Assembly: GCF_036194065.1 (NCBI RefSeq)
Contig: NZ_CP108095.1
Location: forward strand, 8,432,001 to 8,496,000
DNA length: 64,000 nt
DNA from: Streptomyces sp. NBC_00239
GTDB lineage: Bacteria > Actinomycetota > Actinomycetes > Streptomycetales > Streptomycetaceae
Direction of reading: 5' to 3'
Positions 25,767 to 26,867 of the stretch are shown in pieces (within the stretch, counting starts at the first letter, position 1; every line of letters starts with the position of its first letter). The position numbers were made by a program, and so were the translations under genes. Under the pieces are notes generated by a model. It was not told the origin of the DNA. It did no database searches and saw only the letters and a list, made by a program, of their open reading frames with translations.

Positions 25767-26867
25767 TCAGTTGAGGCTGACCTGGAGGGTGGCGGCGGTT
25801 CTCATGGGGAAGCCGGCATCGGTGCGGGTGGTCTGGGGTGCCCAGCGCAGACGGGGGAAGGTGGTCAGCAGGGATTGGATCGCGATTTCCGCTTCGAGGC
25901 GCGCGAGTTGTGCGCCGAAGCAGGTGTGCTTGCCGGCGCTGAAGGCGAGTCCGCGGTTGTTGCCGGGGCGGCGCGGGTCGAAGCGGTCGGGGTCGGGGAA
26001 CTGGCGCGGGTCGCGGTTGGCGGCGCCGACAACGCATGCCACGGTCGCGTGCGCGGGAATGGGTCCGGACGGCGCGTCGGCCTGTACGGCTGTTTCCCGG
26101 AAGATCACCTGCAGCGGTGGGTCGCGCCGCAAAGATTCCGTCCGCGCCGAATAGATCAGGCTCGGGTCGGCGCGCAGGGCCGCCATCTCTCCCGGGTGGT
26201 CCAGGAGGTTGGCCAGCATCGAGCGCAGGTCCTTGTCGATGGTTTCCGCTCCCTCGCCCAGCAAAGCCCCGCAGGACCCTTTGATCATGTCGTCGGAGAG
26301 CCGCTTGCCGTCGACCGTGGCGGTGCACAGGTGCGACAGAAGACCGGGGCCGGGGTGAGTACGGTGGTGGGCGAGGTGCGGGGCCAGGTAGGCGTACAAC
26401 TCGTCACGGGCAATGAGGCCGCGCTCTAACATCGCCGGGTCCTGGCGGGGACCCAGGAAATTGGGAAACTCGTCTGGGGTGCCGCCAGCCATCAGGATTT
26501 TGAGAATCCGCTTTTCCCACGTACCTGGGTGAGTGTACATGTAGTGTTTTATATGGGCGGCTTCCCAAGGTACTCCGTAGCCGCCCCCTGGGTCTTCGGC
26601 GCCTTCAGCGCGGCGCTTATAGGATGGGGAAGCAACTACCAGGATGAAATCCGCTTCTTCTATAGTCTTGTTCATGTAGTCGGCCCATCTCTGCGGCTGT
26701 TCAGCCGCAGAGATGTCAATCTCGGCATTCACCCCTTCCGCGCGGAGTCGTAGCCATAGTGTGCGCACCTTCTCGTCGTGGTGATTACTGTCCCCGTGTG
26801 AATAGGAGATAAACGCCAGAGGATTGTCCTGCCGTCCCTGCTGGTCGCGATCAACCACAGCGCTCAC
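25767..26867 (-). CDS. SEFIR (TIR-like) domain fused to a C-terminal cytochrome P450 segment
   Basis: 366 residues from a GTG at 26867 (a GTG at 26858 is also possible). Residues 17-140 are a SEFIR domain: LAFISYSHGDS at the first strand, WADYMNKTIEEADFILVV, VASPSYKRR, and GVPWEAAHIKHYMY with Glu102 at the position of the NADase glutamate in related domains. From residue 141 it is a P450: I-helix GEGAET (204-209), E244-x-x-R247 in ESLR, and the haem loop FSAGKHTCFG with Cys316. The first 190 or so residues of a normal P450 (helices A to E) are absent; the SEFIR domain replaces them with no stop or frame change. The SEFIR half is clearly less G/C-rich than the P450 half. Leu147, at the junction, is a rare TTA codon. 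Bacterial SEFIR proteins act in antiphage defence; whether haem is bound here is unknown. Confidence 0.8.
   Translation of the reverse strand: MSAVVDRDQQGRQDNPLAFISYSHGDSNHHDEKVRTLWLRLRAEGVNAEIDISAAEQPQRWADYMNKTIEEADFILVVASPSYKRRAEGAEDPGGGYGVPWEAAHIKHYMYTHPGTWEKRILKILMAGGTPDEFPNFLGPRQDPAMLERGLIARDELYAYLAPHLAHHRTHPGPGLLSHLCTATVDGKRLSDDMIKGSCGALLGEGAETIDKDLRSMLANLLDHPGEMAALRADPSLIYSARTESLRRDPPLQVIFRETAVQADAPSGPIPAHATVACVVGAANRDPRQFPDPDRFDPRRPGNNRGLAFSAGKHTCFGAQLARLEAEIAIQSLLTTFPRLRWAPQTTRTDAGFPMRTAATLQVSLN
26686..26715. repeat. perfect inverted repeat inside the SEFIR coding region
   Basis: Arms CATCTCTGCGGCTG and CAGCCGCAGAGATG, 14 bases each, separated by only TT. It covers codons 51-61 of the SEFIR-P450 gene. 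Confidence 0.9.

Follow-up and report, generated by a model that had tools for sequence, protein, structure and literature searches.

The open reading frame and its two segments

We analysed a window of 64,000 nucleotides from Streptomyces sp. NBC_00239 (contig NZ_CP108095.1, positions 8,432,001 to 8,496,000 of the forward strand; coordinates below are those of the window), in which an open reading frame (ORF) encodes a SEFIR/TIR-like segment followed directly by part of a cytochrome P450. The frame lies on the minus strand and is uninterrupted over the 366 codons of 25767-26867, as a preliminary description of this DNA had stated; it also extends upstream to an ATG at 27065, from which the product would have 432 amino acids (aa). 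The start assigned by that description (26867) did not stand up as well as the open frame. A GTG at 26858 appears the likelier start, because the two closest SEFIR relatives (P0002 and P0003, see below) begin there and a Shine-Dalgarno-like AGGTGA (26864..26869, minus strand) precedes it by 5 nt. From this GTG the chimeric ORF occupies 25767..26858 (minus strand) and encodes 363 aa; residue numbers below are those of the 366-aa version that begins at 26867.

Comparison with Pfam placed TIR_2 at residues 19-86 (1.3e-8), SEFIR at residues 18-90 (22.6 bits, slightly below the cut-off of 23) and p450 (PF00067) at residues 176-337 (1.4e-21; profile positions 241-432 of 462), while the PADLOC profile of the anti-phage protein bSEFIR (PDLC03957) matched residues 14-141 (2.6e-22; profile positions 37-158 of 412). 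The TIR_2 and p450 matches, with SEFIR itself just under its cut-off, bear out the arrangement given in the preliminary description, namely a SEFIR domain followed by the C-terminal half of a P450. The composition change reported at the boundary was also recovered: the GC content of third codon positions (GC3) rises from 0.61 in residues 1-140 to 0.85 in the residues that follow. Scans of 25200-27600 for promoters and terminators gave no signal exceeding that of shuffled sequences, and an Rfam scan of 22000-33000 gave no match. We also noted a 14-bp perfect inverted repeat with a 2-base loop (26686-26715) within the SEFIR coding part.

The first segment (fusion residues 4-140; 26448..26858, minus strand) is the 5′ part of a SEFIR/TIR-like gene. 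When residues 1-145 were searched among 5.77 billion proteins, four were returned: the protein itself (P0001), the Streptomyces SEFIR proteins P0002 (300 aa, from Streptomyces sp. NPDC002073) and P0003 (296 aa), and the more distant P0004. Of the 137 positions aligned between P0002 (residues 1-137) and the fusion (residues 4-140), 136 are identical; the single mismatch is the start GTG read as valine, and beyond residue 137 the sequence of P0002 differs from that of the fusion. P0003 is identical to the fusion at 124 of 136 positions and continues like P0002. A glutamate in a WE motif (residue 102; 26562..26564, minus strand), equivalent to E99 of P0002, is invariant in 15 aligned SEFIR rows and is presumably the counterpart of the TIR catalytic glutamate. 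In passages of two papers SEFIR is named among the phage-defence systems that deplete nicotinamide adenine dinucleotide (NAD) (PMC12774641; PMC11559045). The term bSEFIR did not occur in the literature searched, in which SEFIR and cytochrome P450 were met together in papers on fish skin and synovial cells.

The second segment (fusion residues 141-366; 25770..26447, minus strand) is the 3′ part of a cytochrome P450 gene. In a protein search that scored the 7997 candidates sharing most words with it, the closest P450 besides its own, among the best 120 of 7056 matches that were listed, was P0005, a 435-aa protein of Nocardia sp. NRRL S-836, residues 189-421 of which align to fusion residues 141-366 with 51% identity over 234 alignment columns. 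P0005 is a relative of the P450 half and not its parent; the searches yielded no close parent, and other P450 matches in the same genome had 40% identity or less. The best NCBIfam match, to a cyclodipeptide-synthase-associated P450, was not assigned, as its 123.7 bits fall short of the required 500. As P450 motifs we used ExxR and the haem-Cys loop F-x-x-G-x-H-x-C-x-G, both of which are present in the fusion: the former as E244-S-L-R247 (26127..26138, minus strand) and the latter as FSAGKHTCFG, residues 309-318 with Cys316 (25914..25943, minus strand). The I-helix motif reads EGAET (residues 205-209; 26241..26255, minus strand), with Glu205 in place of the consensus alanine.

Position of the junction within the two folds

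The SEFIR and P450 homologies adjoin without a gap at a recombination junction between codons 140 and 141 (26447..26448, assigned to neither strand), where identity to P0002 ends and the alignment to P0005 begins at adjacent codons and where GC3 steps up. Both parent genes are cut at one codon, and the join interrupts each of the two folds, coinciding with neither a domain edge nor a linker.

On the SEFIR side, residues 142-146 form a strand and residues 153-161 a helix in the structural model of P0002, both past the break at residue 137 and lying in blocks with predicted local distance difference test (pLDDT) scores of 87 and 88, and TIR/SEFIR structures align to this model up to residues 161-169 (50 matches listed). 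The conserved SEFIR residues T141, Y143 and L156 likewise fall past the break. The fusion leaves the bSEFIR profile unmatched beyond position 158, whereas P0002 covers positions 38-203 and P0003 extends to 201; the remainder of the 412 positions is matched by neither relative. Judged by the model of P0002, the fusion is without a complete TIR/SEFIR fold, so that, contrary to the preliminary description, the SEFIR domain does not end where its fold should end. It resembles bSEFIR and P0002 in its profile match and in its near-identity up to codon 140, and differs from them in that the final strand and helix of the SEFIR fold, as well as the C-terminus of P0002, are missing; no trace of that C-terminus (P0002 residues 138-300) was found in the genome of NBC_00239.

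On the P450 side, the first ~188 residues of P0005, which form the N-terminal half of its fold, have no counterpart in the fusion, which is about 190 N-terminal P450 residues short. Solved P450 structures align to it from chain positions 171-229 (best 60 of 452 matches), in agreement with the earlier proposal that the P450 begins near its F/G region. We take the missing half to comprise helices A-F, which close the haem and substrate pocket. The fusion thus has in common with bacterial P450s (PF00067; P0005) the C-terminal half, including the I-helix, the ExxR motif and the Cys loop, but does not have the N-terminal half of the fold. A model of the fusion itself has a pLDDT of 81.8, with two stretches of the P450 half below 50, one in the haem-Cys loop (310-314) and the other at 351-358. 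In a fold comparison of this model, 38 of 50 rows start at chain positions 165-187, two later, one at 142 and nine at 61-76; the rows are mostly P450 chains, and the comparison hardly probed the SEFIR part. Taken as a whole, the observation in the preliminary description was confirmed in its frame, its domains and its GC3 step, but not in its start or in the end of the SEFIR fold.

A codon-exact join with a sharp composition step, present in one assembly only (on one contig), is also what would be expected had two stretches been wrongly joined at the boundary during sequencing or assembly. We consider such an artefact very unlikely, as the genome is assembled in 5 contigs with a listed completeness of 100% and contamination of 1.68%, searches of it gave no further near-identical copy of the SEFIR or the P450 half that could have been mis-joined, and the region holds other, unrelated truncations.

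In examining the intact relatives we also noted that the C-terminal domain of P0002 (187-299) recurs with 59% identity (68/115) at residues 301-415 of P0125, an S1-type serine protease of Streptomyces sp. NPDC005820, where it likewise forms the C-terminus. This similarity suggests a common, unnamed sensor or adaptor module that may be joined to alternative effectors.

Search for a second SEFIR-P450 fusion

The preliminary description had proposed that the same fusion be sought in other genomes, and no second instance was found in the genomes and proteins searched, an outcome that the description itself had named as refuting its proposal. The genome sets used (295, 392 and 394 genomes) overlap, and for each genome the 6 best candidates were scored in the 295-genome and P0002 searches and the 2 best in the SEFIR DNA and 394-genome searches. 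Among 295 genomes of the same genus, 79 (own included) matched at 1e-45, and the other matches listed begin at query residue 135 at the earliest. A search of 392 genomes with the SEFIR DNA gave, apart from the genome itself, short matches of ~35-55 bases in 18 genomes, and P0002 matched 22 of 392 (own included), the best of the others at 53% identity and none past residue 198. The DNA of the long ORF matched 19 of 394 genomes of the family, again counting its own, and the other matches listed lie within the P450 part. Among proteins, the four found with the SEFIR part and 16 relatives of P0002 include a P450 in the fusion protein only, and TIR_2 is likewise confined to the fusion protein among the best 120 of the 7056 P450-part matches. 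Both halves were present at 5 of 158 loci, all five being the locus described here. No P450 was detected at E 1e-5 in 19 SEFIR loci of other genomes (~1.5 kb flanks), nor were adjacent SEFIR and P450 genes, from which a simple deletion could have produced the fusion, found at 153 other loci, whose flanks were mostly 1.5-6 kb and which do not include the contigs of P0002 (8,383 bases) and P0003.

Three loci (L034, L060 and L075) were considered as possible recurrences, having matched from query residues 84, 77 and 98, respectively, and hence into the SEFIR part, in a survey that kept 80 of 156 relatives and possibly left out the genome itself. All three were rejected when a tblastn search with the SEFIR part detected no SEFIR there at E 1e-5, and their matches are taken as probable loose extensions of P450 alignments. 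A conserved SEFIR-P450 architecture in more than one lineage is absent from the collections searched.

The genus is only partly sampled (at most 392 genomes in one search), and SEFIR relatives carry varied parts, such as the extra N-terminal region of P0124 and the P0002 C-terminus seen in the S1-type protease; both observations would accommodate a rare but real family of SEFIR effectors with P450-like sensors that is under-sampled in databases. Set against this are the existence of P0002, a near-identical SEFIR gene without a P450, the break inside both folds in place of a linker, and the 19 P450-free SEFIR loci, and we regard such a family as scarcely credible.

Origin of the chimera and its genomic setting

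We conclude that the ORF is very probably a recent chimera generated by illegitimate recombination that is in frame by luck, and that its product is probably not an active SEFIR effector and probably not a P450 either. One illegitimate join would be the simplest account. In such an event, which would not have depended on homology and probably took place on an arm of a Streptomyces chromosome, a lower-GC SEFIR gene would have contributed its first 137 codons together with its start, and a P450 gene of actinobacterial type its final 226 codons, possibly in the course of break repair by end joining. One in three joins is in frame by chance, and open frames persist easily at 70% GC. The retained SEFIR start may allow weak translation of the product, which may then be degraded and probably has no selected function. 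Because the last SEFIR strand and helix, the C-terminal domain of P0002 and the P450 helices that we designate A-F are lost, the chimera should, as far as sequence and models indicate, be neither a regulated SEFIR NADase nor a protein that holds haem in a normal P450 pocket.

The preliminary description had offered two interpretations, of which one was supported. Fusion by chance at a site of recombination is upheld by the codon-exact join of two separately traceable genes, both of which are truncated, although the decay that it ascribed to them was not apparent as a clear excess of changes at conserved P450 positions. The other interpretation, a sensor-effector fusion, was rejected as the best reading: the fusion was found in one genome only, its parts are cut within their folds, and the haem-Cys loop is modelled with low confidence (pLDDT <50). 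We favour the chance chimera over it because neither fold is left whole by the join and the searches gave no second instance.

Weighing against a chance chimera, a comparison of the P450 half with 31 of the 80 loci of that survey of relatives revealed no clear surplus of substitutions at conserved positions, and because of this a functional newborn gene is kept as an unlikely possibility. In such a gene the SEFIR part would still act to some degree as an NADase or in oligomerisation, and the P450 half would serve as a new folding partner or as a ligand or haem sensor. Besides the undecayed P450 half and the overall pLDDT of the model, the open frame, the retained start and Shine-Dalgarno-like site, the invariant SEFIR glutamate and the P450 motifs are compatible with it; the want of a second instance, the missing final strand and helix on the SEFIR side, the missing ~190 residues on the P450 side, and the low confidence of the haem-Cys loop speak against it. 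We rate the chimera as ordinary, with a small chance of its being a functional newborn gene. That it is a recent, intact chimeric immune gene, in which a haem-bearing P450 half has replaced the SEFIR C-terminal domain to give a ligand- or haem-gated NAD-cleaving protein, is highly improbable. Were the chimera to work, it would show an immune effector in the act of capturing a domain. Together with the near-complete SEFIR identity, the lack of clear P450 decay suggests that the event was recent, and is not proof of function. The near-identical intact relative P0002 makes the chimera a clean example of fragment joining, and cautions that in a GC-rich chromosome in-frame joins of fragments can be mistaken for novel domain architectures.

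The contig has 8,511,476 bases, and the distance from the start of the chimera to the contig end, which we assume to be that of the chromosome, is 52.6 kb. The neighbourhood of the chimera is a mosaic of fragments. About 180 bases from the chimera stop lies a 5′ remnant of a plasmid replication-relaxation gene (25408..25585, plus strand), with 76-84% DNA identity to plasmid sequences and matched in 19 of the best 20 of 40 Streptomyces plasmid records. It corresponds to the start (first ~60 codons) of a 299-aa gene, and its frame is broken, the protein matching in two short pieces in different frames. The remnant was also found at 83% identity in 2 of 150 genomes. Plasmids searched with the SEFIR DNA together with the sequence upstream of it gave no match. 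A truncated DDE_5 transposase (21367-21702) covers 95 of 272 profile positions. A 1.2-1.3 kb patch in the region of a metallophosphoesterase gene (22563-23835) is 92-95% identical in two genomes (G004 and G078), in the fetched flanks of which (19-20 kb) there was no further match of at least 150 bases; the patch looks like an island of transfer.

As outlined in portions of Lorenzi et al. (2021, PMC8627663), Streptomyces chromosome arms evolve fast through rearrangement and transfer, with breaks mended by homologous recombination or end joining. The locus resembles the rearranged subtelomeres considered in those portions in its position near a contig end, its mosaic of fragments and its composition step, and differs from them in that two fragments are joined in frame, gene chimeras not being discussed in the same portions.

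Two further repeated sequences were noted near the chimera. A 152-bp repeat (29155-29306) recurs in 19 of 150 genomes with 86-94% identity, several of them having two copies, and overlaps a minus-strand ORF that begins MTLAMAAHACLTVLRGRAL and presumably resembles the C-terminus of an IS701-type transposase. The 3′ part (24834-25274) of a gene for a 395-aa protein (24080-25267) has an 88% identical copy at C1:601343-601782, on the same contig and 0.6 Mb from its other end.
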